This document shows, piece after piece, positions 34,281 to 61,446 of a DNA stretch of 64,000 nucleotides; position 1 is the first letter of the stretch, and each line of letters opens with the position of its first letter. The notes below the pieces were generated by a model. It searched no databases and had not been told where the DNA came from. It worked only from the letters and a program-made list of their open reading frames with translations. Source of the stretch: Pomacea canaliculata (Eukaryota > Mollusca > Gastropoda > Architaenioglossa > Ampullariidae); NCBI RefSeq assembly GCF_003073045.1, contig NC_037594.1, positions 26,480,927 through 26,544,926 on the forward strand, written 5' to 3'. A program made the position numbers and the translations under genes.

Positions 34281-34696
34281 GGTTCCCAGTCACTTAATCC
34301 CCAGACACTTCATCCCCGACACTTCATCCCCGACACTTCATCCCCTAGACTTTTAATCCCCAGACACTTCATCCCCAGACACTTAATCCCTAAACTAAAT
34401 CCTTAACTATAAAAATTATGAAGTCAGCGAAATATATAATTGAAATTCAAATTCAAATCATGCTTTTAACTTCAACGTCATTGGAACATCTACAACATTA
34501 GTTAAAGTTCATATAAGCTAGTAAATTTAATGTTCTTCAACAATATGATATGAAAATAGTTCTTGAGTGTCGGGGATGAAGTGTCGGGGATGAAGTGTCT
34601 GGGGATGAAGTGTCTGGGGATTAAAAGTCTCGGGGATGAAGTGTCGGGGATGAAGTGTCGGGGATGAAGTGTCTGGGGATTAAGTGACCGGACACC
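34281..34696. mobile_element. Fold-back MITE with 9-base target duplication
   Basis: A 416-base element made largely of two inverted arms (about 34281-34390 and 34566-34696). Each arm is a series of CACTTCATCCCC/CACTTAATCCCC units around an AT-rich centre. ATAGGAAAG stands on both sides (34272-34280 and 34697-34705). The paralogous site in unit 2 (near 43883) has one ATAGGAAA and no insert, which fixes both ends. The termini are GGTTCCCAGTCACTTAATCC and, inverted, GGTGTCCGGTCACTTAATCC. A 9-base duplication suggests a MULE-like or hAT-like mover; there is no transposase, so the superfamily stays open. Confidence 0.85.
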
Positions 34697-35047
34697 ATAG
34701 GAAAGACAACCACATGCAATCATTCCCCACAAGTTAAATAACGCCCTTGGTGTGTTTCATTACATAAGTAAGACTTGATGAACATTGTTTACAAACCTGG
34801 TTTCTTTATTTATGCCTCATCATTACTAATAAGATGGGATAGGAGGCTGGGAATTATTCGGTGTGGGAGATCCGTGTATCAAATAAATCGCACAATGTAG
34901 GTGGTGCAAGTGAAAGAAAGAGAAGGAGTTCGATGAGGTCAGCATCATTAATTCTTTTTAAACTCGAGTGATAAAGCAGAATGAGGAGGATTTACATACT
35001 TAATTACTCAGGCCTGTCTCACATGGTGGGCAGGAATATCTGAAAGC

Positions 35048-35536
35048 AATAAAAGCTACAGGTGGTACAGGTCAGCAACACTTGCATCAGACACCGACAC
35101 CCACAGGTAGACGCTGCGCTGTCGCTGCTGGAGGTTGCTACGTATGTCCTTTTTGCTCTTAGTTTATCTAATATTATTTTACCTCCCACAGCTTGTGGAA
35201 TTTTTGAAAGGCAAAAGAACAGCAGGTTATCTCCTATTGCATTGTCCCCATTTATTTGTTTTCCTTTTCATGTCTCCTTATAAATTCGACTTCCTTTTAG
35301 TTTCTCTGTTCCTGTTTAGTGTGTAATCATGTTGTTTACTGTGAGTGTTGTAACATGAACACACATCGTGTATACCAAGTGTCACAGCTTTGTAACTTTC
35401 TCCATGTAATATCTAGTCTGCCATCTGACTTCCACATCGACTTGCAGGTGTAACAATCATCTTTGGTCTTCAACTACGATGGCACTCAGACTGTTCATCT
35501 GCCTCGTGATCCTCAGCCTTGTGGATGAGGGACACA
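35048..35536 (+). promoter_or_regulatory. K1 promoter and spliced 5' UTR
   Basis: CAATAAAAG near 35047 is the only TATA-like site. It precedes a probable noncoding exon ending GACACCCACAG before GTAGAC at about 35107. The next exon starts at 35448, after TTGCAG, and carries the ATG at 35479. The same arrangement occurs at 44233-44714 (K2), and a longer first intron is found in K3. Confidence 0.5.
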
Positions 35537-36320
35537 GTAGTCAGTCTACATTTTATTCCTTTCTTTATTAGTATCATAACTCATAACTGAAAAGTTTGAA
35601 TAAATAAAGTAAAAGATCAAAAACGAATAAAAGAAAGAATACACGAATGAATAAAGAAATCCAGCTTAGCTATATAAAAATTCAGTGAATTACAACGATA
35701 GAAAGTATCTACCATTTTGTTCTCTTTTGTTCATGACACGTCACTTAGAGTGTGGTGTTGAACTTTGGATACCTTCCTTAAAAAAAGAGTTTATATGCTG
35801 AAATTCTAAGGTAAGGATAGCAATGGGCATCATGAAAGAAACAAATGATTAAGTGTAATTCTTAAACAAAATAATATAATTTTTTTTAAGTTATCGCAAT
35901 TAGTTGGATAACTTATGAAAGTAATGTTAGTAATGAGTTTGAAAATAGTATGAAAACAAAGCTAACATCACCATTTGTATTTTGTGTGCTGCAGGCTGTT
36001 ATGAGCCCCTTGATCCAGGCACTTGTAAAGCAAACATTACTAGGTATTATTTCGACATCTCTTCACAAATATGCCAGAACTTCACCTACGGGGGCTGCCA
36101 AGGCAACGGAAATAATTACGTTACCATGGAAGACTGTACACGTGACTGTGTTTGCTCCTTGCCCAATCAGCCGGGTCCTTGTGAAGCGTACAACCCCAGG
36201 TACTTCTTCAACGTAGCTTCCAAGTCCTGTGAGAAGTTCATCTACGGCGGCTGTAAAGGCAACGAGAATAATTTTGAGACTTTGGATGACTGCCAGCATT
36301 CCTGCCTTCCATGTGTGTAT

Positions 36321-36395
<75 letters not shown>

Positions 36396-36730
36396 AAAAT
36401 GAGTAGAAAAAAAGAGTAAGTAAAAGATAAAAATAAGGAAAAATTCAAAGACACTAAGATGATGAAGACAATCTGATTTTCTCCAGCAGTGCTGTTTATA
36501 GTTTTAGTTCTCAAACATTGTTGCAATAAGCTACTTACTTTATTTTTATATTTTCTTTCATAGACTGCAACCTGCCAGCGGAGATAGGCCCTTGTAGAGC
36601 CTCAATTGTAAGATATTTCCACAATGCTACAACTGGAGCTTGCGAGGAATTTACTTATGGCGGATGCGCAGGCAACGCAAACAACTTCGAGACGAAGGAA
36701 GACTGTGAGAAAGAGTGTCACGATTCCTGA
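35479..36730 (+). CDS. K1: secreted three-domain Kunitz serine protease inhibitor
   Basis: Exons 35479-35536, 35995-36312 and 36564-36730 join with phase-1 introns to 180 residues. A signal peptide ([20 protein letters not shown]) is followed at once by three BPTI/Kunitz domains: C21-C71, C73-C123 and C127-C177. Each has canonical cysteine spacing (8, 15, 7, 12, 3) and the F/Y-x-YGGC and NNF/NNY motifs. Kunitz domains block serine proteases by inserting the P1 residue after the second cysteine into the active site. P1 is Lys31, Glu83 and Arg137, so domains 1 and 3 should suit trypsin-like enzymes while domain 2 should not. Only Val72 separates domains 1 and 2. The product should act outside the cell. 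Poly(A) signal AATAAA at 36949-36954. K2 is the closest relative. Confidence 0.9.
36321..36398. repeat. (GAAA)n microsatellite in K1 intron 2
   Basis: About 19 GAAA units begin 9 bases after the splice donor at 36313. The homologous run is short in K2 (45503-45541) and broken in K3. Confidence 0.9.
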
Positions 36731-38217
36731 GATGTCGGCAACTGAGACATAAAGAACCATTCAGCTCTTTCGTATTTTGTTCCGAACTAAATCATATAAT
36801 CTAAAGATACAAGCAGCTGGAAAAAAATGTAAAGAGCACATGTTCAAGTGTCTTGATAGAATACAGAGAACGTTGACAAGAACAACTTAACAGTTATTCT
36901 GAAAACGATATTTTATGTCAAACGAAGAAACCATGGAGATCTTGTAAAAATAAAGACAAGATAACAAAGCAAAATAAAGCAACAAGATACAATGATTCAA
37001 GTCCAGGTCTTTATTTCTGTGGATGTGGCGCTGGTGTCTGTTATTAACTGAGTCAATAAGTGTTTGAAGACAAGGTTAGTCCATCAAAAAAGGGATTAGG
37101 ACTAATTCATTGTCTAACAATGTTTTTCAAGCATCAACAATATTAAAAAGTGCAATTTGCTTCATTACTGGGTTTTTGGTGCTACAGTCTACTTGATTAA
37201 GTACAGGTCTTTCCTTCAATATCTTGCTAGTTTAATCTCTGATTAGTTCAAAAAGTACATATACATCAAAAATGCACTTCCTTCTCTAGCTGGGTAGAGG
37301 AGACAAATGCGCTGAAAAAGGTGCTGGGTGTAACGGTTACTATCATTGTTTATTTCTGATACTCTCACTCTAAAGCGTGTATAAGACAAGAATACCTTTC
37401 TTGAAAACAGATCATTTCTAAATTTCTTTAGAAATTATTTCTTATTACCACCTAGGTGAAACGGGAAGTCACAATCCAACAAATCAGTAAACAACACTGT
37501 ACTATTGTTGATACCAAACTTTCATACCCCTGGGTATGGAGCAAAGTAAACAACACAACAACAACAAAGAATGGAGAGAATCAGCATGCTATTACACCCG
37601 GCTGTCTGTTATTGATCATTCTTGGACTTTGGTGTATGATAATGAAACTGTTGACCAACTCGTTTCGGTGGCAACAAGAAAGGATTCTGTCTAGACAACA
37701 GGTTATGCTTAAGTAATAATTAATAACTTAAGACCGCGCATTCTGTATTATATAATGTCCACCTATCATAAATATTATGTAATGTACAGCTCTCAGAAAT
37801 AAAAGGCTGTCCTCGAACCTTTAGGTTGCTGGCGAGTGAGATGTTTGAGACCCTATTTTCCTCACATAAAATAAAAGGCAGTAAAGGGAAAAACTTTCAA
37901 AGTTTTACGTTTATTGCTTCGCATCCGACATTTACATCTGCTTCTTGTTTATTCTGTCAGTGTTGGCGGTCTCTTGATCAATAGCAAGCGGTACGGCTGC
38001 GTTGCATAGGCGGTCTTAAGTTTTCGTCTTAACATGCCTTGCTTAACTCGCTTTTCGTCTTGGCTAAGTCGCGGTCTCAATCCTGTTGCATGAGCGAGCC
38101 TAGCCCCTCGCTTAGCTGCGAAACGGGTCAGGTCAGCGCGGCGGTCGAGGTCAGCGATATAAATAAATTCGTCCGTAGAGCGGCCGAGGCTTCCCTTGCC
38201 AACCGTATATTCCACCA

Positions 38218-40828
38218 ATGAAAACTGCGCTACATCGATGGTGCCGAACCGCGAAATTCGTCTGCGCACCATGGTTGAAACGAAGAAGAGAGGTGCGTAA
38301 AATATTAGTCTTCATCGAGGAGGTTACCAGGGAGAAGAAGAGGCTTTTCCAGAAAAAGAAAACGATGAAAGAAATGAACGAAATTAAGATCTTCCACGAT
38401 TTCATTTCGCAGTCGTCAAATACATCCACCAACGGGGGGGGGGGAACACAAGAAACACCAGTGATGAATGGAGTAAGTGATAAATATTTTAGAAGATGAT
38501 TGCAGAGAACTGATAGACGGCATAAACATCGAAGGTTAGTCATTTTGTTTACCTGTGTAGACTTATTTTTTCATGTCTGTGTCATCCGCAGAAAAAGATC
38601 TAGATACCGAGAGAATGCAAATGCAAAGCCTATAGTCAGCACACAACAGCCGGTTTAAAAATAAGTATTTCCATCCGAAATACATTTATTTAAAATAACT
38701 AGGTACATTTCTCATTTCAGTTTTTGTTACAGGTGGTGAATCATTTACGCTGGTGCCTCCAGAAGTCTTTTATGATAGGGGAGAGTAATAAAATAATAAT
38801 ATTGACATATATATATATAGGAGGTGCAATATAGAACACTCCAGTTCAATCTTTTAATTCAATAATGGAAATGCTTTTGTTAGAAGCATATGCAGATTTA
38901 TTATTTTCATGCATAGCAAACAACAGTGAACTGAACATTTCAGACAATGAGTTTTTCAAATGGGAAATTTTAAAAATGTACTTCGTAAGGCGCACACAGC
39001 AGCCTGTGTGATATTAAGAATTTTCAGCCAAAGTGCATTTATTTTAAATAATTAGATATACTTCTCATTTACTTATAAATTCCCTTTTCGTTACAGGTGG
39101 TGAATCATTTATGATGGGTCCTCCACAAGTCATTTATGATAGTGGTGAGTAATACAATAATATTGACATATACAGAAGGTGCAATGTGAGTACTTATACA
39201 GAACACTTCACTTTAAACTCAATAATGGAATTTTGTTGGTAGAGTTTATATAAGTTTATTATTTTCATGCATAACATACAGCAAGGAGCTTAACATTTCA
39301 GAGGATGTGTTCAAATGGGAATTTTTACGAATGTACTTTATATCACATATATATTCCAGACAATATATAAAATATGTATGAGAAGCAGCCAAGGTTTTGT
39401 TCCTTAGTGTGAAGCATTAAATAACAAGCACAAAGATTGTTAATCATGCAAACTCATTCCATCCTGTAGTTCCTACTTGCACACTCGACCCAAAAGACCT
39501 TTGCACCCTTTGTACTCCGTGTACACAAAAAAGCAAATAAAACCCAACCCAAAAGTGAACAGCATGTCTAACAGTTTTAGGGTGTAGTGTGATGACAGGA
39601 AAAATTCCCACAGCTGGCTTAAAACCATATGTTGTTTAATTCAAGTGCCAAACTTAGACTATGGCATGATTTGGGAAGTGTACACAGCAGGTTTGTCCTT
39701 ACATCAGGTCAGTTTGGACATTTAGCAAGTTTTAATGTACCAGTCTGCCACATTACAGTACCAGTGTTTGACAGTTGGAAATATTAGTAGAAATTAATCT
39801 TTTGAAAGACACAGATGTGCAGCATCTACATTCTGGAACTGTTGCATATAAGACACTATAAAGTTCTGAAATGGGTATACACAGGTCAAGTCAAAAGGGC
39901 TAATACAATTGTCACCCAGTGTAAACATACACATTATCACGTAGTATCATTATATAATTTTAATTTAATAGTCTTAACATGCACTACTCTAGATTGTCCA
40001 ATATTTCTATTGTGCAGACTGTGAGAATATCTATATTCCACAAGTGACCTCTGCTGTGAAAGATGCTGCATGTAAGTATTAGCTGTCAGGAGAAGCCTGA
40101 TAGAACAATTAATTGTCCTGAAGATATTTCTTTTGTCATATTTTGTTATTGTGTAATATAAGTGTTTTGAGATGCATGAACCATACATGAAGGCAGAGGG
40201 TGGGTTTTCTAGATTTGTCAAATTTATTTCAGATAAAGGAGGAGTTAAGCTAATTGCATGATGATAATCATTCTTGCTGTTTTCAGATCTAGCTCCCCTC
40301 ATCAACTCTGAATGCAAGAAAGACATGTCTATCACACTCCCACTAGCAGTATGCGGTAAATATCAAAATTATTGGGTTTTTTTTTTACTTGGCAACACAA
40401 AGAATAACGAGCAACATAATTTATTTGTATAGCAACAAGCTGCACACAGAAAAGTAATTCAAACAATACCTTTACATAACCTAATTCGATGGTAAGTACT
40501 CAGTGCTCCCAGAAAGTAGTGTTGTGGATCAATTGTTCATAAAAATAGTTAATTTTTTGTGCAGCAATGTACACCATTGAAAGCCAGTAGTTCAAACACA
40601 CCTGGTGATGGACCAGCCAGGCAGAATTCTACCAGTCTACTTGGTCATCTGAGCAAAAAAAAAAGGAAAAGACAATATAATACAACAGAATGCACTACAA
40701 ATACAAAAGACATGAAAACTTTGCAGCTCCTGGACAGTGAACTTGATCGAGTTAACAAAGAATCCCAACTGATGGACATTAGAATAAAACTGGCACAGAC
40801 AGAGTTAACAAATGCAAAGCTGTCATAG
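38218..40828 (+). pseudogene. Harbinger accessory protein frame (second ORF), putative
   Basis: Open pieces on the plus strand: 38218-38499 (basic, KKR-rich), then possible short exons near 38732-38780, 39097-39143, 40019-40070 and 40288-40356, and a last exon at about 40562-40828. The last piece has a nuclear-localisation-like KKKRKRQ and a helical tail (LLDSELDRVNKESQLMDIRIKLAQ, split here: LLDSELDRVNKE then SQLMDIRIKLAQ). Harbinger elements usually encode a Myb/SANT-like partner of the transposase; I see no clear Myb repeat, so identity is inferred from position and tail. Confidence 0.4.
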
Positions 40829-41169
40829 CTCAAGACTTATTATGAATTAAAGAGGCTAGAAAACGAATAGTCAATACCCGCTGCTGAAAGTGTCGACAAA
40901 CTGATTGAGCTGGATATTGCTGCTCTGCCAAAATCCAACTGAATAATAAATATTATGACCATTCAGTTTGAAATTTTGACTTGTTTGTTATTGTTTTGTT
41001 GTAAGTGTTATTAATTTGTCAACTGTTGGTACAACCACACTCTCACAGCCCTTGCCTAAGTTGTTGAGCACATGTCATTAGGAAACTTTTTCTTAAATCT
41101 ATGATAATCCCTGAAAGTATACATTTTGCTGCTCTTGTATTAAAATTTCTTTACACATACCTTAGGAAG

Positions 41170-42932
41170 AACCGTGCAACAATTCTATCACGTGCGTGTC
41201 TTCCTGGCAGTGCTGCATCCTGGAATGGGCCACCCTCTCTATCATTATTTGAATCCTCATCAGAGGCCTGATCAGAGTTGTCATTCAGATCGGGACAAGG
41301 GTGTATCTGAAGTCATAAAAGTATATTCTGAAGCACTGGATATTAAAGGGGATGAGTTTATGTAATTCTAAACCATGATGAACACAAAATGGTGCAATAT
41401 ATTACAACATAAAAATAAAGACATGTACTCATCAGCCAATAAGAAAAACTTTGACAAAACAAAGACAGTATATACCTTAGTTGTGCCTGAAGGCAATGAA
41501 ACCGTGTCTTAAAAACACCATTGGCTCTCTCAATGGTGCTCCTTGTTGAGCAGTGTGAGCGGTTGAACCTTTCCTTGGTTCTGGTGTCTGCATTTAGGAA
41601 GGGGGTGGGTGATTAGCCAATCCCTTAGTGGGTAGCCACTGTCTCCCAGAATTATCCCAGACAGGGGGCGAGGATTTCTCTCCATAGCTTTGAAAAGGGA
41701 GCTCTCCCTTAGTATACGGGCATCATGGACTGAACCAGGCCAGTTTACGACACAATGGCGAATGATGAGGTCCGCATCACACATTAATTGTACATTAATG
41801 GTATGCTGACCCTTCCTATTCACAAATATCTGTTCATTTTCAGATGGCCGACGAATAGGTATATGGGTGCAGTCAATGCAGCTGGCAGACACACATATTC
41901 GTTTAGGTGCCTTGCAAAGGCAGCAGACACTCTGATTAATATGCGGCTGATTGTAGCTTTGTCGATGCCAAAAGTGTCAGCCACCACAATTTACATGGTG
42001 CCTGTTGCATAAAAGCGTAATGCCACCATCACCTGCAAAAAGGCGAAGTACAAACAAGTTTTGTAAACAACTATAGCATTCATAGGAGATAGGAAATATT
42101 ATTGACCTCCATGATCTATCACTCACATTTTAATGAAACTGGCCCTTTTTTGGTTACAAAGGACTATGTGAACATAAACCTAGTATGATTATTTACCTGT
42201 TGAGAATGTGAGATACAGCGTGCAAATTTATATACTGTGAGCAACTGCCTGTCAAATTAATAAACGCATATTAAATCTAACTCTACCGGAGGTTGTGGGT
42301 GCTCTGCTTTTTATTTTGGGTTGTGTTATTTGAATACAATAACAAAAATGTTTACGTCCTACAAAAGTACTCAACGTTGTCAATAAGATTGCTATTAATT
42401 ATAGATTAAAATAGCGACATTCGATATTATGCTTAAGAAATCGAGGACGTGGTAGAGAGATACCATGTGTTATAATGACCTAAGAGGAAGATGAATGTAC
42501 GTAGTAGTGACAAGTCTTACCTGCAACTAAGGCGGAACAGAACCTTTTGGCTGGAAAGGGTGGTCAAGATCATTTTCCACCAAGTCCACCAAGTCAATGA
42601 TGTTCGTTAGACCATGAACGTAGATCCCAAAGTCTCATTAAATTCCATTTTCGCGCTGCTCTTCCGGAAGTACGACCGGCCTTTAGGTTCGCCGAGACTA
42701 ACAGCGGATCACTTCGAAAGAGGCCGACAGTGAGTCTCGGCATACAGACATCACACCTATACACGTCCATGGCTAGACGGAATCGAAACCTATCATACAC
42801 ATCGACATCATGATATACTTCAAAAGGATTAGATCTATCCCCGAAGATTCTGTCTCGTCTCAATTGCCGACGCACGATGATTCGGTAAGCAACAGGATGA
42901 ATCGCCATCTTGGAAAACTGCCGTGTGCGCAT
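41170..42932 (-). pseudogene. HARBI1-like transposase, decayed
   Basis: On the minus strand, 42932-42594 has DRSNPFEVYHDVDVYDRFRFRL, the N-terminal signature of Harbinger transposases (here one residue run too long to be quoted whole elsewhere). 42060-41893 gives an ATISRI helix-turn-helix-like region. 41892-41530 gives the DDE nuclease core: CIDCTHIPI, FVNRKGQHTINVQ, VVNWPGSVHDARIL and LGDSGYPL. The frame then changes to STIERANGVFKTRFHCLQAQ, and a downstream acidic exon follows at about 41300-41170. In-frame stops and at least two frame changes make it non-functional as it stands. Similar genes domesticated in animals (HARBI1) lack such breaks. Confidence 0.8.
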
Positions 42933-43698
42933 GCGTAAGTAGCGAGTCGCGGCTAACCAAGGGGTTACAGGGAAGGGCAGCCATCTTAAATTTTAAGACG
43001 AAGACCGCTCGCTGTTGCACAAGACTTGTCGAGGTCAGTCTATTGTGAGAGGTCAAGATGCTTTGTTATTGCCGCACGTCCACCGCTCACTGACATTCCG
43101 TGCATCCGGTCCCAGAAGACTGTAAGTAGGCAGAACACGTGACCTCGACAAAGAGCGAGCATCACCACGAAGGACTGGCAGTTGGAAGTGTCTCACTTTA
43201 TTGAGGCGATGTCAGAAACAGAGTTAGAACCGCCCACATCTGACTCCAAATATGAATTAAGCGAGCGTCCCTTTATTTCTCCAGCTTAGTTAAGAGATTG
43301 CAGGTGGGATAGGTGCACAAAATAAGATAGTAAGTTGGAGCCAGTCTAATTATTTGAGGGGAGGAGCGAAGAGGCGGCTGTTCACACATTACGGACGTGA
43401 ACCTTTGAGAAGAAATATAATTTTCTGCAACAGCTGCAACAGACAGGACCATGTCACCAAAGCAGACGACAGATGTCAGCATTTAGCGCTTCTTCATGAC
43501 AGTTACTGGTTTTATTTCAATAAAATAATTAATAGTAATTAAAACTTCTATTTAGACTTGTATTAGTTATTTGAAGTAGATGATTGAATTGTCTTAATTA
43601 ATAGTTAATTGTTTATTAAGAGTAATGAAAATTTTATTGTTCCTTCGACCGTATATAGTACTTTTTTTTACCTCTCTTCCAGCTTCTCACTGGTGTCT

Positions 43699-43742
<44 letters not shown>

Positions 43743-43750
43743 ACAAACAG
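43699..43750. repeat. (AAC)n microsatellite, unit 2
   Basis: A nearly pure CAA/AAC run, read as poly-Asn on the plus strand. It matches the run at 34085-34140. Confidence 0.9.
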
Positions 43751-44656
43751 ACAAAATGCTTCTACATAAACAAGTGAAGAATAAGAAACATCCACATGAC
43801 TTTACTTTCAATTTTTTTTTTCTTTAACACATGTCTGCGCATTTTCACATAAAATTCGTCCTTACACATAAACAAGAGGATAATAGGAAACACAAGCACA
43901 TGCAATCCTTCGCCACAAGTTAAATAACGACCTTGGTGTGTTTCATTACATAAGTAAGACTTGATGAACATTGTTTACAAACCTGGTTTCCTTATTTATG
44001 CCTCATCATTACTAATGAGATGGGATGGGAGGCTGGGAATTATTTGTTGTGAGAGATCCGTGTATCAAATAAATCACACAATGTAGGTGGTGCAAGTAAA
44101 AGAAGAGAAGGAGTTTGATGAGGTCAGCATCATTAATTCTTTTTAAACTCTAGTGATAAAGCAGAATGAGGAGGATTTACACACTTAATTACTCAGGCCT
44201 GTCTCACATGGTGGGCAGGAATATCTGAAAGCAATAAAAGCTACAGGTGGTACAGGTCAGCAACACTTGCATCAGACACCGACACCCACAGGTAGACGCT
44301 GCGCTGTCGCTGCTGGAGGTTGCTACGTATGTCCTTCTTTTAGCTCTTAGTTTATCTAATATTCTTTTACCTCCCACAGCTTGTGGTATTTTTGAAAGGC
44401 AAAAGAACAGCAAGGTATTTCATATTGCGTAGTCCCTATTTATTCCTTTCCATTTTAATGTCACCTTATAAATTTGACAAACTTTTAGTTTCTCTGTTCC
44501 TGTTTAGTGTGTAATCATGTTGTTTGTGACTGTAGTATGATGTACACACATACCAAGAGTCACAGCTTTGTAACTTTCTCCATGTAATATCTAGTCTGCC
44601 ATCTGACTTCCACATCGACTTGCAGGTGTAACAATCATCTTTGGACTTCGAATACG

Positions 44657-45871
44657 ATGGCACTCAGACTGTTCATCTGCCTCGTGATTCTCAGCCTTGT
44701 GGATGAGGGACACAGTAGTCAGTCGATACGCTTTACTCCTTTCTTTATTAGTATCATTCTTCCAAACTGAAAAGAAGTTTGAATAAATAAAGTAAAAGAT
44801 AAAAAAAATGAATAAAAGAATACACGAATGAATAAAGAAATTCAGCTTAACTATATACCAACTCAGTGAATTACAAAGATAAAAAGTATCTACCATTTTG
44901 TTCTCTTTTGTTCATGACACGTCACTTATAGTACGGTGTTGAACTTTGGATACCTTCCTAAAAAAAAAAAAAAATTTATGCTGATATTCTAAGGTAAGGA
45001 TAGCAATGGGCATCACGAAAGAAACAAATGATTAAGTGTAATTCTGAAACAAAGTAAAAGGATTTTTTGAATTTTTGACAACCTGTTGGGTAACGTATGA
45101 AAGTAATGTTAGTCATGAGTTTGCAAATAGTATGAAAACAAAGCTAACATCACCATTTTTATTTTGTGTGCTGCAGGCTGTTATGAACCCCTTGATCCAG
45201 GCCCTTGTATGGCAGAAATTACTAGGTATTATTTCAACATCTCTTCACAAATGTGCCAGAACTTCACCTACGGGGGCTGCCAAGGCAACGGAAATAATTA
45301 CTTTACCATGGATGACTGTACACGTGACTGTGTTTGCTCCTTGCCCAGTCAGCCGGGTCCTTGTCAAGCGTACAACCCCAGGTACTTCTTCAACGTAACT
45401 TCCAAGGCCTGCGAGGAGTTTATCTACGGCGGCTGTAAAGGCAACAGGAATAATTTTGAGACTTTGGAAGTCTGCCAGCATTCCTGCCTTCCATGTGTGT
45501 ATAGAAAGAAAGAAAGAAAGAAAGAAAGGAAGAAAGAAAAATGAGTAGAAAAAAGAGTAAGAAAAAGATAAAAATAAGGAAACATTCAAAGACACTAAGA
45601 TGATAAAGACAATCTGATTTTATCCAGCAGTGCTGTACATAGTTTTTGTTCTCAAACATTGTTGAAGTAAGCTACTTACTTTATTTTTATATTTTCTTTC
45701 ACAGACTGCAACCTGCCAGCGGAGACAGGCCCTTGTAGAGCCAGAATGGAGAGATATTTCTACAATTCTACAACTCGAGCTTGCGAAAAATTTATTTATG
45801 GCGGATGCGCAGGCAACGCAAACAACTTCGAGACGAAGGAAGACTGTGAGAAAGACTGTCACGAGTCCTGA
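44657..45871 (+). CDS. K2: secreted three-domain Kunitz inhibitor
   Basis: Exons 44657-44714, 45177-45494 and 45705-45871; 180 residues, same phases and signal peptide as K1. The 5' UTR portion of the first coding exon starts at 44626. Three domains with all 18 cysteines. P1 residues are Met31, Gln83 and Arg137. Met suits elastase- or chymotrypsin-like targets; Gln is unusual. Domain 2 has a Val directly before its fifth cysteine (LEVC) where K1 and K3 have Asp. Compared with K1 I count 26 replaced codons and about 4 silent changes in the two mature exons. Poly(A) signal 46082-46087. Expected to act outside the cell. Confidence 0.9.
45503..45541. repeat. (GAAA)n microsatellite in K2 intron 2
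   Basis: About nine units, interrupted once, at the position of the longer run in K1. Confidence 0.85.
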
Positions 45872-48669
45872 GATGTGGGCAACTGAGACATAGACAACCA
45901 TTCAGCTCTTTCGTATTTTGTTCCAAACTATATCATATAATCTAAAGATACAAGCAGATGGAAAAAAATGTAAAGAGCACATGTTCAAGTGTCTTGATAG
46001 AATACAGAGAACGTTGACAAGAACCACTTAACAGTTTTTCTGCAAACGATATTTTATGTCAAACCATCGAGATCTTGTAAAAATAAAGACAAGATAACAA
46101 AGCAAATTAAAGCAACAAGACACAATGATTCAAGTCTTTATTTCTGTGGATGTGGCGCTTATGTCTGTTATTAACTGAGTCAATAAGTGTCTGAGGTCAT
46201 TGCGAAGATTTGACGTCATTTTATTCGTATGACGCACTCTGTGTGTAAGGCTTGTAAGGCTCTGTCTGTCGGAAACTGATGAAAAGACAATTTTGAATCT
46301 TTTCCATCTTTTCGTGGCAATCGGGTGCAGCACATTCTCGAGGCATGGTTGTCACTATGGAAACCACACGTCATAGGGTCACGTGACGGAGAACGAGACT
46401 TCGTGGAAGCAAAAAAAGAGTCCTGTGTAATTTCTCTTATTAAACACAACATTCTACTAAAAACCTTCAATGTTTTCCACATGAACACACATATAAATAG
46501 ACGAGATTCAAATGTATCTACTCTTTACGCCATTCTAAGCAGTTTTAGTTTGCCTTTACAATCCCTTTAAGTAATAATAACTTAAGACCACGCATTCTGC
46601 ATTATATAATGTACTAAAATATTGTATAATGTACACGTGTCAGAAATATTGTATAATGTATACCTATCAGAAGTAAAAGGCTGTTCTCCAACCTTTAGGT
46701 TGCTGGCGAGTGAGATGTTCGAGACATAAAATTAAAGGCAGTAACGTTTTACGTTTATTACTTCACATCCGACATTTACATCTGCTCCTTCTTTATTCTG
46801 TCAGTGTCGGCGGTGTCTTGATCAATAGCAAGGGGTCTGGTGCACACGACTTGTCGAGGTCAGTCTATTGTGAGAGGTCAAGATGCTTTGTTATTGCCAC
46901 ACGTCCACCGCTTACTGACATTCCGTGCATCCGGTCCCAGAAGACTGTAAGTAGACAGAACACGTGACCTCGCCTAAGAGCGAACAACACCAAGAAGGAC
47001 TGGCAGTTGGAAGTGTCCCACTTTATTGAGGCGATGTCAGAAACAGAGTTAAAACCGCCAACATCTGACTCATAAAATGAAGCGAGCGTCCATTTATTTC
47101 TCCAGCTTAATTAAGAGATTGCAGGTGGGATAGGTGCACAAAATAAAGATGAAGCCAGTCTCATTATTTGAAGGGAGGAGAGAGGCGGCTGTTCACACAT
47201 TACAGACGTGAACCTTTGAGAAGAAATAAAATTTTCTGCACCAGCTGCAATAGAAAGGTCCATGTCACCAAAGCAGACGACAGAAGCCAGCATTTAGCGG
47301 CTGATCCATGATAGTTAGTGGTTTTACTTTCAATTAAATAGCTAATGTATTAACAGTTAAAGGTTTATTTAGACTTGTAATATTTGAATGAAGTAGATGA
47401 TTTAATCGTTGGTCTTAGTTAATATTTTATTAAGACGAAGGAAAAACTTATTTCGTCTATCAGCTTAGAATTCTTTATTCTGTAGCAAAGAATCTTTAAC
47501 AACTAAGATTTAAGATGAAGGTATACTACTGTTTTTTAAAAATCAACCAAAATACCCTGCCTGAGTGTAAGAATAAATAATGAAATGAAAGGTTTAATAA
47601 AAGATTTGACAAAAAACAAGCTAAGAATTATTTGTTGTGGGACATCCGTGTATCAAATAAATCACACAATGTAGGTGTTGCAAGTGAAAGGAGAGGAGGA
47701 GTTCGACGAGGTCAACATCATTTTTTTTAAACTCGGGGGATAAAGCAGGTCTGTCTCACATGGTGGGCAGGATCATGGGAAAGAAATAAAAGTACAGGTT
47801 GTACAGGTCAGCGACACTTGCATCAGACAGCGACACCCACAGTAGCCGCTGTGCTGTTGTTGCTGGAGGTTGCTACGTATGTCATTTTGTTTACTCTGAA
47901 AGACAGAATTGAACCGTAGTCTGTCAAGTTTATCTAATATTCTTTTACCGGGACTGAATGAGTTAGCACTTTTTTGAGACCAGTGATAATTTTTGAAGGC
48001 TGTTGACCAGATTAGCAGCAAGGATGTAATTATACGGTGTTGATGAACCAGTTTATTATCTATCGATTTTATATGTGTTGTAAAAATTATGAAAACTTTT
48101 GTTGAGGGTGAAAGAAATAAGGGAGTAATAGACCGAAGGACTCTTCTAGATGAATATCCAAATATTACAAAAATACTACCACATAACAATCGCAGTCTTA
48201 ATACTTTCGAGTATAAGGATGGCGTTAGAAAAGGTAAAAAAGTAGGAAGATTAATCTCTTGGACTTAATGTAACTTTCAGAAACAATTCGACTCTCATAC
48301 AAGAAACAGAATAGATTACAAATGAGGACACTTGATGTTACTGTCTTAGGTATGGTTGTCAGTGTGTATATTTCACAATAACACAAGTACCCGATTCACA
48401 ACAGTGCGCCCACATGCTGAATGATGTTTGTAACTGAAAATGTTGTTTTAAATAGCAAGTAAATAAATAAAGACATATTATTACACATTACACAAATATA
48501 ATTTCATAAGCAATAACAGAAAAAGATGTCATACCTTGTCTAGGCGAGGTTAATCCACAAGGGGTGGGTACCACTCGGCTTTGTAACTTTCTCCATGTAA
48601 TATCTAGTCTGCCATCTGACTTCCACATCGACTTGCAGGTGTAACAATCATCTTTGGTCCTCGACTACG

Positions 48670-49632
48670 ATGGCACTCAGACTGTTCATCTGCCTCGTGA
48701 TCCTCAGCCTTGTGAATGAGGGACACAGTGGTCAGTCCATATGTTTTATTCTTTTGCTTATCTGTATCATTCCTCCTAATTGAAAAGGATAGAAAATAGA
48801 CAAAGAAGAGTAAAAAAATTCAATCAAAGGAAAAGACGAAAAAGAATAAAAGAAAGAATACATAAAAAGTATCCACCATTTTTTTCTCTGCTGTTTATGA
48901 CTAGTCCCTAATGTAAAATTTTTGGGCACCTGCCATAATAGAAAAGTTTTATGTGCGTATATTCTATGGTAAAGATAGTAAGAGGGGCACCATGAATGAC
49001 AAAAATGATTGAGTTTAATTCTGAAACAAAATAATAAATTTTTTAAATTTATGAAAATCTGTGGTAACGTGTAAAAGTATTGTTAGTCATGCGTCTGAAA
49101 ACAGTATGAAAACAAAGGTAATATTATATTTTGATATTTGCAGGCTGTTTTGAGCCCCCTGATCCAGGCCCCTGTAACGCACGCTTTATTAGATATTATT
49201 TCAACCCCTCTTCAAAAATGTGCAAGAAATTCACCTACGGGGGCTGCGAAGGCAACGGCAACAACTACGTCACCTTGGATGACTGTACCCGGGCCTGTGT
49301 TTGCTCCTTGCCCAGTGAGCCTGGTCCTTGTAAAGTGAACAACCCCAGGTACTTCTTCAACAAAATGTCCAAGTCCTGTGAGGAGTTTATCTACGGCGGA
49401 TGTCGCGGCAACCATAATAATTTTAAGACTTTGGAAGACTGCCAGCAAACCTGCCTTCCATGTGTGTATAAAAAATGAAAGAAAGAGAAAGAATGAAAGA
49501 AAAAGTTTGAAAAAGTAAGAAAAAGAAAGAAAGAAGAATTCAAAGACACTAAGTGAAGTTAATAAACAATCTGATTTTATCAAGCTGTGCTGTATTTAGT
49601 TTTTGTTCTTTAAAATCATTGAAATAAGCTAC

Positions 49633-49680
<48 letters not shown>

Positions 49681-49852
49681 TATTACAGACTGCAACCTGC
49701 CAGCGGACAGAGGCCCTTGTAAAGCCTCTCTTATCAGATATTTCCACAATGCTACAACTGGAGCTTGCAAGTCGTTTACTTATGGCGGATGTGGAGGCAA
49801 CGCCAACAACTTCGAGTCTTTGGCAAAGTGTCAGAAACACTGTCCCCGTTAG
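48670..49852 (+). CDS. K3: secreted three-domain Kunitz inhibitor
   Basis: Exons 48670-48727, 49144-49461 and 49689-49852; 179 residues. The signal peptide differs from K1 by one residue (VNEGHS for VDEGHS). Domain 1 starts CFEPPDPGPC, and domain 2 follows after one residue (CVCSLPSEPGPC). Domain 3 ends CQKHCPR. P1 residues are Asn31, Lys83 and Lys137, so domains 2 and 3 look trypsin-directed and domain 1 atypical. All cysteines are in place. It is the most diverged of the three unit copies. Poly(A) signal 49977-49982. Confidence 0.9.
49634..49684. repeat. (ATT)n microsatellite in K3 intron 2
   Basis: About 16 ATT units end next to the splice acceptor at 49687-49688, replacing the usual pyrimidine tract. 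K1 and K2 have an ordinary T-rich tract here. Confidence 0.9.
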
Positions 49853-52534: not shown

Positions 52535-54307
52535 ATGGTATTGAAGATCTTTGCCTGCCTGCTGGTACTCGGCCTTGCGAGGACCTACACGTGGCCTGGT
52601 AACTGAAAGAAGTTTGCTCCACATCCCAATTTTCGTGATTGATAGTTAGAAATAGTTTGTTACAGGTTCTCGACAGTCATTGGAAAAGTCTAATTGTTAG
52701 TGTGCACGTCCGTTCACTCTAAAACAGTCTGTGAGCTCCTTATCTTTTGCCCTGATAAAAGCACTTTATTATCTATAACCGACTTGGGAAAATTAAGCCA
52801 AGGTTCTTAACTGTGTTGATTAACTCCATTATAGTCGAGGGGGTGGTGATCGGGAGGTACGATGTGTGCAACCTAAAAAGCCTTTTGTGACTGTCAGAAG
52901 TATCAGTGGGTAGATAGGCTGGGGGTGATGAAGGGGGAAGGACACCCTGCAACACAGCAATATTGAATCCAAATGTCAGCGACTGTTTTACAGTAGGTTT
53001 TTTTTTGTCTTGCAGGTTGTACAGACCCCGCTATCATAGGGCCATGTCGGGGGCAGTTTTACAGGTATTTCTTTCAACCAAATATCACAGTCATGTGAGC
53101 TTTTCATCTATGGGGGCTGCGGGGGCAACGACAACAACTTCTTGAGTCTGGAGGAATGTCAGAACGCTTGTCCTCCTGAAGCCAAGAGAGAGGTCGCCAT
53201 CAATCCAGGTAGCAACAATAAGTTAAGTGTACATCTAATTTAGAATTCTTTATAAATATATGTGCATTTCGGTTTCAATTTGTGAAAAGTGAAAATGTCA
53301 TTCAGATTTTATAATCATGTAGTCTTCAATACTTCTGACACTTGGACGTATGTTCTGCATGACAAAGATCAAAAAAAAAAAAAAGAAAAACATTATAGAC
53401 ACCTGTTTGCTATGACTCAGTAATCGAAAGTTTACCTAGTATTTCTTGCTTAATTTTTCGCACGAAATATCAAAGTCAAGACAAAGAAAATAAAGTACAT
53501 TTTTTTGAAATCATTGAAAACCTTATCCACCAGATTGCAACCTGCCCAGAGTAACTGGCTTTTGTGAGGCCTACATGCCAAGGTATTTCTACAACCCGGC
53601 AACCGGAGCCTGCGAGCGGTTTATTTATGGAGGGTGCATGGGCAATGCCAACAACTTCCACACTATAACAGACTGTGAACATGCTTGCATCCCTCAGGCC
53701 AAGAGACAAGCCAGCCTCCCGACAGGTAAGACTTGTCCCCATCCTTGGTCAAGAACTTTCTCGTCGGAATCACTGTAGATGTCACCGGTTATTAAAATAA
53801 TTTCATTTTCATATCTTGCAAACAGGAGAAATTCAATAATAAGTTTAAGCAAGTCATATAAATTACAATTTTAGGAAGATGAAAAGCTGTGTTGTTCTCG
53901 CTTTTTGAGGATTTACTCATTGACGACTGAGTCAACAAGATAGTCGTCTGTAACAGCTAATGTCATCACAAGACTGAATTCCAATGATACCTGGAGCTCT
54001 TAACTGTCTCTAACACTGACACTTTTTCTACACTTTGTAACAAATATCATCTACATTAGCTAAGTGTCTAACAGTAAACCAATAATCAATCAACACAAAA
54101 CAACTTTAAATGATGTTGATAGTGGATTCTATTCCAGCCTGCAGTCTGCCCAGTGAGACAGGTCCCTGTAAAGCCTACTTCCCCAGGTTTTTCTTCAACA
54201 CCAACACCGGGTCGTGCGAGCAGTTCATCTACGGTGGTTGTGATGGCAACGCCAACAACTACCTGACAGTAGAGGATTGTCAAGCAACTTGTTTGGTGGC
54301 TAGATAG
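52535..54307 (+). CDS. K4: three-domain Kunitz inhibitor gene with one frame break
   Basis: Exons 52535-52598 (signal peptide [20 protein letters not shown]), 53016-53208, 53534-53725 and 54138-54307, one Kunitz domain per exon with phase-1 introns. Domain 1 matches K5 domain 1 ([19 protein letters not shown]) but its frame is broken once inside the exon, so either the gene is a pseudogene or the assembly is wrong there. Domains 2 ([20 protein letters not shown]) and 3 ([20 protein letters not shown]) are intact. P1 residues are Arg, Glu and Lys. The linkers [10 protein letters not shown] and [10 protein letters not shown] contain Lys-Arg, a possible prohormone-convertase site. A TATA box lies 80 bases upstream. 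Poly(A) signal 54594-54599. It forms an inverted pair with K5. Confidence 0.8.
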
Positions 54308-56307: not shown

Positions 56308-57947
56308 TCAAGCGATCAAACAAGTTGCTTGACAATCTGCTAAACTCTCGTAGTTGTTGTCGTTGCCACCACAACCACCGTAGGTAAACTCCATGCACGA
56401 CCCGGTGTTGGTGTTGAAGAAAAACCTGGGTATGGCGGCTTTACAAGGACCTGCCTCACTGGGCAGACTGCAGGCTGAAATAAAATCCACCATCAACATC
56501 ATTTAAAGCTATTTTTATGTTGATTGATTATTGGTTTACTGTTAGGCACTTAGCTAATGTAGATGATATTCATTATTTTAAAGACATGAGACTGAAAGGA
56601 TTTTCAACTGACTGACATCTACAGTGGTTTCAGACCAGAAAGCTTGGTCTTGTCCAAGATTAGGCACGACCAATCTTACCTGGCAAGAGACCCACTTCTC
56701 TCTTGGCCTGAGGGATGCAAGCTTTTTCACAGTCTGCTACAGACAGGAAGTTGTTGGCATTGCCCATGCACCCGCCATAAATAAAGTGCTCGCAGGCTCC
56801 GGTTGCCGGGTTGTAGAAGTATCTCGGGAAGTAGGCCATACAGAGGCCACTTTCACTTGGGCAGGTTGCAGTCTGGCACAAAAGTTTTACAGAGACTTTA
56901 ACCACACATGATTAATTTTCTTTGTTTTTATTTTGACACTCCTTAGAAGAAGAAATATTAAGTAATGATCTACTGGTAAACATCCGATAGCTGAGTCATA
57001 ACAAACAGGTGTCTAATTCCTTCCCTTTTTCATTTTTCTTGTCTGTTGTCATACAGTAAGTTGGAGAAGTTTTAAATGTCCGAAATGTTAGAGACTGCAT
57101 GATAAAATCCAAATGTAATTTTTAATAAAATGAATATAGAGATGTAAATTATGTATCAATTAATATTAAAGAAAGCAAGACCTAAACATGTTGTTGCTAC
57201 CTGGATTGATGGCGACCTCTCTCTTGGCTTCAGGAGGACAAGCGGTCTGACATTCCTCCAGAGTCACGAAGTTGTTGTCGTTGCCCCCGCAGCCCCCATA
57301 GATGAAAAGCTCACATGACACTGATACTGGGTTGAAGAAATACCTGTAAAACTGCCCCCGACATGGCCCTATGATAGCGGGGTCTGTACAAGCTGCACGA
57401 CAAGAAAACCTACTATAAAACAGTCGCTGACATTTGGGTTCGTTATTACTGTTTTGCAAGGTGTATACTTTCTTCACACTTCATCATCCCAACCTATCTA
57501 CCCACTGATACTTCTTACAGTCACAATAAATCGCTGTGGCCTCAGTTCCCAAACATACTCCATCCCGTCCACCATTGCTGTCAACAGTAAGGACAAGGCT
57601 GGATTCTAGTCTGTTAGTTGTAAATCAGAGATAATTTTACTTTCTTAGTGACTGATGATAGATAAGCTAGTCACTTTCCCATCTGACCACAGAGTCAATG
57701 AAGCAGTGGTTGACTTATTTTGTAAGAACAAATAATTTTGAAGTCAAAGAGAAGGGGTTGACTGTATTTTTTAGGTCTATCCTTTACCAAAGACCCTATT
57801 CATGGACATGCACAAATCGTGGACAAGTAAAGGTCAACTAAAAGAAGAAGCAAGTGAGAAGGTAGGAGGGAGAAACTTCCACTTACCACTGTGACCCTCA
57901 TTGGCAAGGCCAAGCACCACGAGGCAGACGAAGAGTTTAAGAACCAT
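56308..57947 (-). CDS. K5: three-domain Kunitz inhibitor gene, inverted partner of K4
   Basis: Exons on the minus strand: 57947-57887 (signal peptide [20 protein letters not shown]), 57392-57201, 56872-56680 and 56474-56308. Domain 1 ([15 protein letters not shown]...[13 protein letters not shown]) and domain 3 ([21 protein letters not shown]) are intact. The exon of domain 2 is one base out of step with the expected splice phase; its body ([17 protein letters not shown] onward) is open, so one break, an alternative acceptor, or an assembly error must be invoked. P1 residues are Arg, Met and Lys. Lys-Arg linkers as in K4. The conserved promoter block with TATAAAATG (58044-58052) lies about 100 bases upstream. 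Sequence is clearly homologous to K4 including introns. Confidence 0.8.
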
Positions 57948-60624: not shown

Positions 60625-61446
60625 ATGAAGCTCACCGTGCTCATCGTCCTTCTGGTCATCGGCTCACTTCATGCAGTTCCGGATTGTGAGTTTATCTTGT
60701 TTTCATACTTGTTTACATACCCCTTTCCCTCAGTGTTTCCTACGTGGAACTAGTAGACAGGTCAGATCAGTTCTTGTCGCTTGACCTTTGCACAGACCTA
60801 AAGGATTAACCCTAACCCTCTAGTGAAATTTTTATAGCACCAACCACAAATGGAACCCAAACCATTTTGCCATTCATTTCATGATGAAAACTCACACACT
60901 GGAAAAATGCAACACCTATTTAATTAAAACACGAAAATCAGTGTAATTAACGATACCCCAAACCACAATGACAAAATATAGTAATGCTACGAACAGATAC
61001 GAAGAGTTTGTATCGCATGATTTAGTCATACTTTTCTTCCTTAAACTTTAAAAAACATATTGTTTTAATTAGAATTATAATCCACTATAGTCACAAAAGT
61101 CAAGATTATTCAGGCTAAAAAAAATCTGATTACTGCCGAGCACATAAGTCATATACAAGCTTTGCATGAACTCTACTTGAAAATCTCTCGCAGCTACCAA
61201 ACGTGTCTAATTTTCTTGTCATTTGGGAAAAAAACAAACAAACAAACAAAAATAAAAAAAAACCCGTTGTGCTGCTTGGTTTCAGACTGCAGTCTCGCCC
61301 CAGAAAGAGGTCCCTGCAAGGCATACATTAAAAGATACTACTACGACTCCAAGGATGGAAGTTGCAAGAGGTTTATCTACGGAGGCTGCGCTGGTAATGC
61401 AAACAACTTTCAGACGAAAGGCGACTGCGAAAAGGCCTGCCACTGA
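60625..61446 (+). CDS. K6: secreted single-domain Kunitz inhibitor
   Basis: Exons 60625-60685 and 61286-61446 give 73 residues. The signal peptide is MKLTVLIVLLVIGSLHA, followed by VPDY and one Kunitz domain (CSLAPERGPCKAYIKRYYYD ... CKRFIYGGC ... ending CEKACH). The six cysteines have canonical spacing. P1 is Lys, predicting a trypsin-type target. The intron is phase 1, as throughout the cluster. A TATA box lies at 60520 and the poly(A) signal at 61523-61528. Its NNFQTKGDCEKAC tail is closest to domain 3 of K1 and K2. The compact form could be near the ancestral state or a reduced copy; order cannot be decided here. Confidence 0.92.

Follow-up and report, generated by a model that had tools for sequence, protein, structure and literature searches.

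Each domain of the Kunitz family presents a P1 side chain to the pocket of a protease, which it inhibits in the canonical, substrate-like manner. Among the systems closest to the one described here, the published account of snake venom Kunitz/BPTI proteins lists sites at which the ratio of replacement to silent substitution rates (dN/dS, or omega) exceeds 1, both within the canonical loop (15, 17, 18, 19, and 20 in textilinin-1 numbering) and on the scaffold surface; for vampire bat inhibitors the same account counts 4 in one domain and 5 in the other and, where it treats tick inhibitors, none (PMC5107962). Accelerated exon evolution, in which the signal exon is conserved and the mature exons change, has been described for snake toxin genes in a source whose account holds segment switching to be unimportant for Kunitz inhibitors (PMC2711939). 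We analyzed three Kunitz genes, K1, K2, and K3, that lie in a 64,000-nucleotide stretch of the genome of the apple snail Pomacea canaliculata (contig NC_037594.1, positions 26,480,927 to 26,544,926 of the forward strand; this whole stretch is referred to as the window, and positions below count from its first base). Their coding divergence is near the intron level but uneven, with scaffold codons nearly static and a small surface and loop class, including P1 and P2', fast. The reading that we favor, to which we give a probability of about 0.6, is that diversifying selection has acted on a few codons of the surface and reactive loop in these tandem copies.

K1, K2, and K3 lie in tandem as copies of one gene, which by its sequence encodes a secreted Kunitz/BPTI protein of three domains, predicted to inhibit serine proteases. 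Each has a signal exon, an exon 2 with two Kunitz domains, and an exon 3 with one, all with intact frames; three PF00014 stretches are found in each (197.3 to 202 bits, against a curated Pfam cutoff of 21), and the canonical cysteine spacing is kept (54 of 54 cysteines over the nine domains). The protein assembled from the three exons of K1 is letter for letter the NCBI entry "BPTI/Kunitz domain-containing protein-like [Pomacea canaliculata]." Relatives sought for a cross-species test yielded none of use: among the best 120 of 341 protein matches and a further set of 7, many of them unnamed, K1 is the only one labeled as coming from Pomacea, with neither K2 nor K3 present as a separate protein. 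Among the papers listed for Pomacea Kunitz genes, none was on the cluster, as judged by titles and the openings of abstracts. A genome search gave at least 56 Kunitz matches in P. canaliculata, 16 of them inside the window and 3 just past its end. The span to which the initial annotation referred opens with K1 exon 2 (first base, 35995) and closes with the stop codon of K2 (45871). The exons of the three genes are as follows.

35479..35539, + strand: K1 signal-peptide exon (gives the NCBI protein together with exons 2 and 3)
35995..36312, + strand: K1 exon 2, Kunitz domains 1 and 2 (PF00014)
36564..36730, + strand: K1 exon 3, Kunitz domain 3 and stop
44657..44717, + strand: K2 signal-peptide exon, one silent change relative to K1
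45177..45494, + strand: K2 exon 2, Kunitz domains 1 and 2
45705..45871, + strand: K2 exon 3, Kunitz domain 3 and stop
48670..48730, + strand: K3 signal-peptide exon
49144..49461, + strand: K3 exon 2, Kunitz domains 1 and 2
49689..49852, + strand: K3 exon 3, Kunitz domain 3 and stop

The N-glycosylation sequons vary by copy, falling at codons 34, 49, and 147 in K1, at 41, 49, 93, and 147 in K2, and at 147 in K3.

A probable class of fast codons on a nearly static scaffold

Codon site models were fitted to the 160 mature codons of K1 to K3 with our own implementation rather than PAML, verified by null simulations only. Twice the log-likelihood difference (2dlnL) in the plain models was 17.2 for M1a/M2a, 17.7 for M7/M8, and 17.1 for M8a/M8, with 8.5% of codons at omega 14; a value of 17.17 was reached in 0 of 43 simulations without multi-nucleotide mutation. 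Allowing double and triple substitutions improved the null by a 2dlnL of 7.0, and the multi-nucleotide-aware M1a/M2a and M8a/M8 tests gave 10.3 each, with 8.2% of codons at omega 13, a test value reached in 1 of 249 null simulations. Three sequences admit only one topology, so recombination cannot distort the shape of the tree. The aware test stood at 6.4, 6.7, or 10.1 upon removal of codon 111, 34, or 155 singly and at 9.0 without the tail; it gave 9.8 for exon 2 alone, 9.1 for the 45 contact codons alone, and 5.3 for the 133 codons lacking loop positions 11 to 19. When Kunitz positions were pooled over the three domains, the plain test gave 7.9. A class of codons with omega above 1 is supported by these comparisons, which the initial annotation had proposed as a check, but it is fragile and leans on few codons.

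The changes at and next to P1 that the initial annotation had pointed out are confirmed: in the order K1/K2/K3, the P1 residue is K/M/N in domain 1, E/Q/K in domain 2, and R/R/K in domain 3. The codons concerned are listed here, with the naive empirical Bayes (NEB) probability for one of them.

36027..36029, + strand: K1 domain 1 P1 codon AAA (Lys); K3 has AAC (Asn); NEB 0.79
45209..45211, + strand: K2 domain 1 P1 codon ATG (Met)
36183..36185, + strand: K1 domain 2 P1 codon GAA (Glu); K2 has CAA (Gln) and K3 AAA (Lys)
36596..36598, + strand: K1 domain 3 P1 codon AGA (Arg); K2 has Arg and K3 Lys

With M2a lacking the multi-nucleotide term, NEB values above 0.5 fall, in BPTI numbering, at positions 15 and 17 of domain 1, at 25, 26, 39, and 42 of domain 2, at 11, 17, 19, and 32 of domain 3, and at codon 180 of the tail. 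Among the fast codons, domain 1 contributes P1 and P2', and domain 3 contributes P5, P2', and P4'. A contact set of positions 11 to 19 and 34 to 39, drawn from what we take to be the BPTI contact positions, holds 6 of the 10 in-domain NEB codons, compared with 39 of the 135 non-cysteine positions (P = 0.034). We also used a reduced set of our own choice (11, 13, 15 to 19, 34, 36, and 39), from which near-invariant loop positions were left out.

Between K1 and K2, replacement rates are 0.171 in loop 11 to 19, 0.111 in the full contact set, and 0.064 outside it, against 0.089 in the introns; the loop exceeds the introns (P = 0.049), as does the reduced set (0.171; P = 0.021), and the noncontact rest does not (P = 0.93). 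For every pair, the reduced set changes at a higher rate than the remaining positions (P = 0.0022, 0.0045, and 0.00001). Counted as changed residues, the full contact set is unenriched in every pair (P = 0.19 to 0.27) and the reduced set is enriched at P values of 0.062, 0.026, and 0.012. The scaffold is kept, and quick replacement seems to be confined to a small number of codons, some of which lie in the loop that grips the protease; few codons carry this pattern.

Divergence of whole exons and introns

The initial annotation had rested its case on a count by eye of replaced and silent codons between K1 and K2, and that count (15 and 3 in exon 2, 11 and 1 in exon 3, and 0 and 1 in the signal exon) proved exact. 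That replacements thereby exceed chance was not borne out: there are about four replacement sites per silent site in the mature exons, so that a count of 26 replaced against 4 silent codons departs little from what would be expected. By the Nei-Gojobori method (NG86), 385.7 replacement and 94.3 silent sites carry 29.5 and 5.5 differences (dN = 0.081, dS = 0.061, ratio 1.33; one-sided Fisher P = 0.41); with kappa set to 2, the ratio is 1.64 (P = 0.23), and the maximum-likelihood omega is 1.60 (P = 0.33 in a likelihood-ratio test against 1). For K1-K3 and K2-K3, omega over the mature protein is 0.69 to 1.02. We accordingly rejected selection as read from raw codon counts, given the NG86 ratio with its nonsignificant Fisher test. 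A dN/dS at or below 1 had been named as speaking against diversifying selection and one clearly above 1 as speaking for it; the K1-K2 values fall in neither range, being above 1 and not significantly so. The case shows that such a lopsided count is compatible with an unremarkable dN/dS, and where the signal, if real, resides.

The introns served as the neutral scale. The duplicated blocks, and a probable noncoding exon of K1, lie as follows.

34697..37067, + strand: K1 duplicated block, 90% identical to the K2 block
43883..46194, + strand: K2 duplicated block
35046..35141, + strand: probable K1 5' untranslated region (UTR) exon A, with boundaries inferred from conservation and splice-site letters, not from a transcript

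The K1-K2 mismatches amount to 26/296 in the UTR intron, 48/452 in intron 1, and 11/210 in intron 2; to 89/856 in the upstream spacer, 16/345 in the promoter, and 15/320 in the 3' region; and to 0/96 in exon A (the inferred 5' UTR), 3/31 in exon B, 1/61 in the signal exon, 21/318 in exon 2, and 14/167 in exon 3. This tally omits 3 stray columns at 34285 to 34699 and the final 24 aligned columns past the block (14 mismatches). Intron 2, put at about 93% identity by the initial annotation, measures 94 to 95% (11 or 12 mismatches in 210 aligned bases). Its statement that the mature exons change as fast as introns or faster holds in its first half: they differ at 35/485 positions (7.2%), compared with 85/958 (8.9%) for the three introns (P = 0.31), and the notion that they outrun the introns was rejected on these figures. 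The mature exons show no net constraint, yet they do not rise above the intron rate. Exon A and the signal exon together (1/157) are slower than both the introns (P = 3 × 10−5) and the mature exons (P = 6 × 10−4), and we infer that the 5' leader and signal exon remain constrained.

Proposed selection on contact codons and its alternatives

On the reading that we favor, gene duplication would have come first, and the surface that touches the protease would then have been diversified by selection, whereby each copy may have come to grip other target proteases through the canonical mechanism. The P1 of domain 3 is basic in every copy, and those of domains 1 and 2 switch. The basic P1 of domain 3 suggests trypsin-like targets; as to which proteases, those of egg consumers or of the gut are our guess. 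What stands of the diversifying selection originally proposed is the small site class and the changes at P1; whole-gene dN/dS and the comparison of exons with introns do not bear it out.

A number of results weigh against selection on these codons. Whole-gene omega is significantly above 1 in none of the three pairs. Measured against introns, the full contact set is not significantly faster between K1 and K2 (P = 0.23), no codon class is faster between K1 and K3, and neither loop 11 to 19 (0.297; P = 0.36) nor the reduced set (0.355 against 0.266; P = 0.076) is significantly so between K2 and K3. The changed positions track variability in 29 other snail Kunitz domains (Spearman 0.78 with entropy), and contact enrichment, for which the overall P value is 0.19 with the full set and 0.005 with the reduced set, is not significant within entropy strata (0.21 and 0.19, respectively). 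The aware site test drops to 2.5, with the signal lost, when codons 34, 111, and 155 are all removed; it is 4.3 for exon 3 alone and weak for the pooled positions (4.4 for M1a/M2a and 4.3 for M8a/M8). When multi-nucleotide mutation was simulated, 2 of 42 runs attained the plain value of 17.17, which makes the plain test unsafe. All of the site tests rest on three sequences only.

Some of these points are what relaxed constraint would predict, with the mature domains drifting near-neutrally after duplication and only the disulfide scaffold kept: whole-gene omega is near 1 (0.69 to 1.64), exons and introns diverge alike, and the changes fall at generally variable Kunitz positions. We nevertheless regard this as unlikely, since two classes with omega capped at 1 fit significantly worse than a model that adds a class above 1, even when multi-nucleotide substitutions are allowed, and the K1-K2 loop is faster than the introns. 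Rather improbable in our estimation is that multi-nucleotide mutation, or a few codons hit several times by chance, mimics positive selection. Its mark can be seen in the better null and the fall of the test from 17.2 to 10.3 once such changes are allowed, in the simulations that reach the plain value, and in the loss of the signal with three codons; the aware test nevertheless keeps a value seldom reached under the null, and the contact codons by themselves retain most of it.

Gene conversion had been named in advance as an explanation that could undo the case, by wiping out silent differences in the mature exons and thereby inflating dN/dS. K1 and K3 do share 82 identical bases directly upstream of the start codon (35387..35468, + strand; permutation 99% point, 44), with intron 1 of the same pair differing at 114/404 positions. 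This tract, which lies outside the mature exons, may be either a conversion tract or a constrained or regulatory element. Over the same region, 80 bases are identical between K2 and K3, and the adjoining introns differ by 26 to 28%. The longest K1-K2 identical run (86 bases) is within the permutation range (P = 0.08) and also lies outside the mature exons. The proportion of changed silent sites (rounded, 6/94) is statistically indistinguishable from that of the introns (85/958; P = 0.56) and from that of introns plus spacer (174/1,814; P = 0.37). With silent sites matching introns and the tracts lying elsewhere, we rejected conversion as the source of silent identity in the mature exons; it is not needed there and is very improbable as a cause of the pattern.

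Neighboring genes, egg proteins, and known systems

About 5 kb between K1 and K2 (37993 to 43011) is a transposon-like insert, presumably Harbinger-like, which is missing at the matching place downstream of K2 (46836/46837) and contains a DDE_Tnp_4 (PF13359) fragment (41530 to 41976, minus strand). Farther on, K4 (about 52535 to 54307) is a second type of Kunitz gene with one domain per exon; in its domain 1 (53034 to 53171) the frame is broken and the match contains a TAG, reflecting a pseudogene or an assembly error. K5 (56320 to 57393, minus strand) is the inverted partner of K4 (78% over 964 bases) and has a frame shift near the exon start of domain 2. K6 (61288 to 61443) is, as seen in the window, a single Kunitz domain exon, and the next gene, K7, lies past the window end (26546816 to 26548066 on the contig, minus strand). 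In the inverted second type (K4, K5, and K7), four of the 5 comparable domain pairs give a mixed omega of 0.16 to 1.40, and domain 1 of K5-K7 has 7 replacement and 0 silent differences. Elsewhere in the same genome, a second dense Kunitz cluster (L010; C8:6928211-6936530) shows varied P1 residues.

A possible function for the K1-K3 inhibitors comes from the eggs of the same species. Ovorubin of P. canaliculata eggs has been placed in the Kunitz family, in the account given of it, on one tryptic peptide of m/z 1361.57 matched to a fly inhibitor (PMC2997075). None of the 43 distinct Kunitz strings in the DNA analyzed matches the fly peptide exactly, and its one-residue relatives among them are only those of K2 domain 2 (1333.56) and K3 domain 2 (1377.56). 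The sequence that we take to be that of the fly peptide has a computed mass of 1361.56. In mass, the peptide of the ovorubin preparation comes close to those that trypsin would release from domain 2 of K2 and of K3, without equaling them, and an allele or paralogue of the cluster is a candidate for its source. A later report describes PmPV1 of P. maculata as being without proteinase-inhibitor activity and includes protease inhibitors among other Pomacea egg proteins (PMC5696525, 2017). We tentatively raise the idea, doubtful as it is, that inhibitors of the K1-K3 type, rather than the carotenoprotein, were the Kunitz component of the 2010 ovorubin, and that duplication is diversifying their reactive loops against the digestive proteases of animals that prey on the eggs. 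If the inhibitors turn out to occur in eggs, public proteome data would allow the origin of the proteinase-inhibitor activity reported for apple-snail eggs to be tested.

Among solved structures, the top sequence match is SmCI, the Sabellastarte magnifica carboxypeptidase inhibitor (4bd9), which also has three tandem Kunitz domains; the likeness of K1-K3 to this carboxypeptidase inhibitor is one of sequence and domain layout. If P1 of textilinin-1 is, as we assume, position 17, two above BPTI numbering, then P1 and P2' are common to the snake venom list and to that of K1-K3. The snake venom Kunitz proteins, as the account of them has it, share with K1-K3 the fold and the presence of omega>1 sites in the loop, and differ in being venom proteins, represented by many sequences and with 30 to 50% of the Kunitz domain concerned (PMC5107962), whereas K1-K3 are three-domain snail proteins, represented by three sequences and with about 8% of codons concerned. 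With snake toxin genes, as these are characterized in the source cited above, K1-K3 share a conserved signal exon and changing mature exons, but their mature exons match the introns and do not exceed them, unlike those of the snake genes (PMC2711939). Given these snake precedents, both for omega above 1 in the loop and for a conserved signal exon with changing mature exons, the kind of pattern seen in K1-K3 is one already known.

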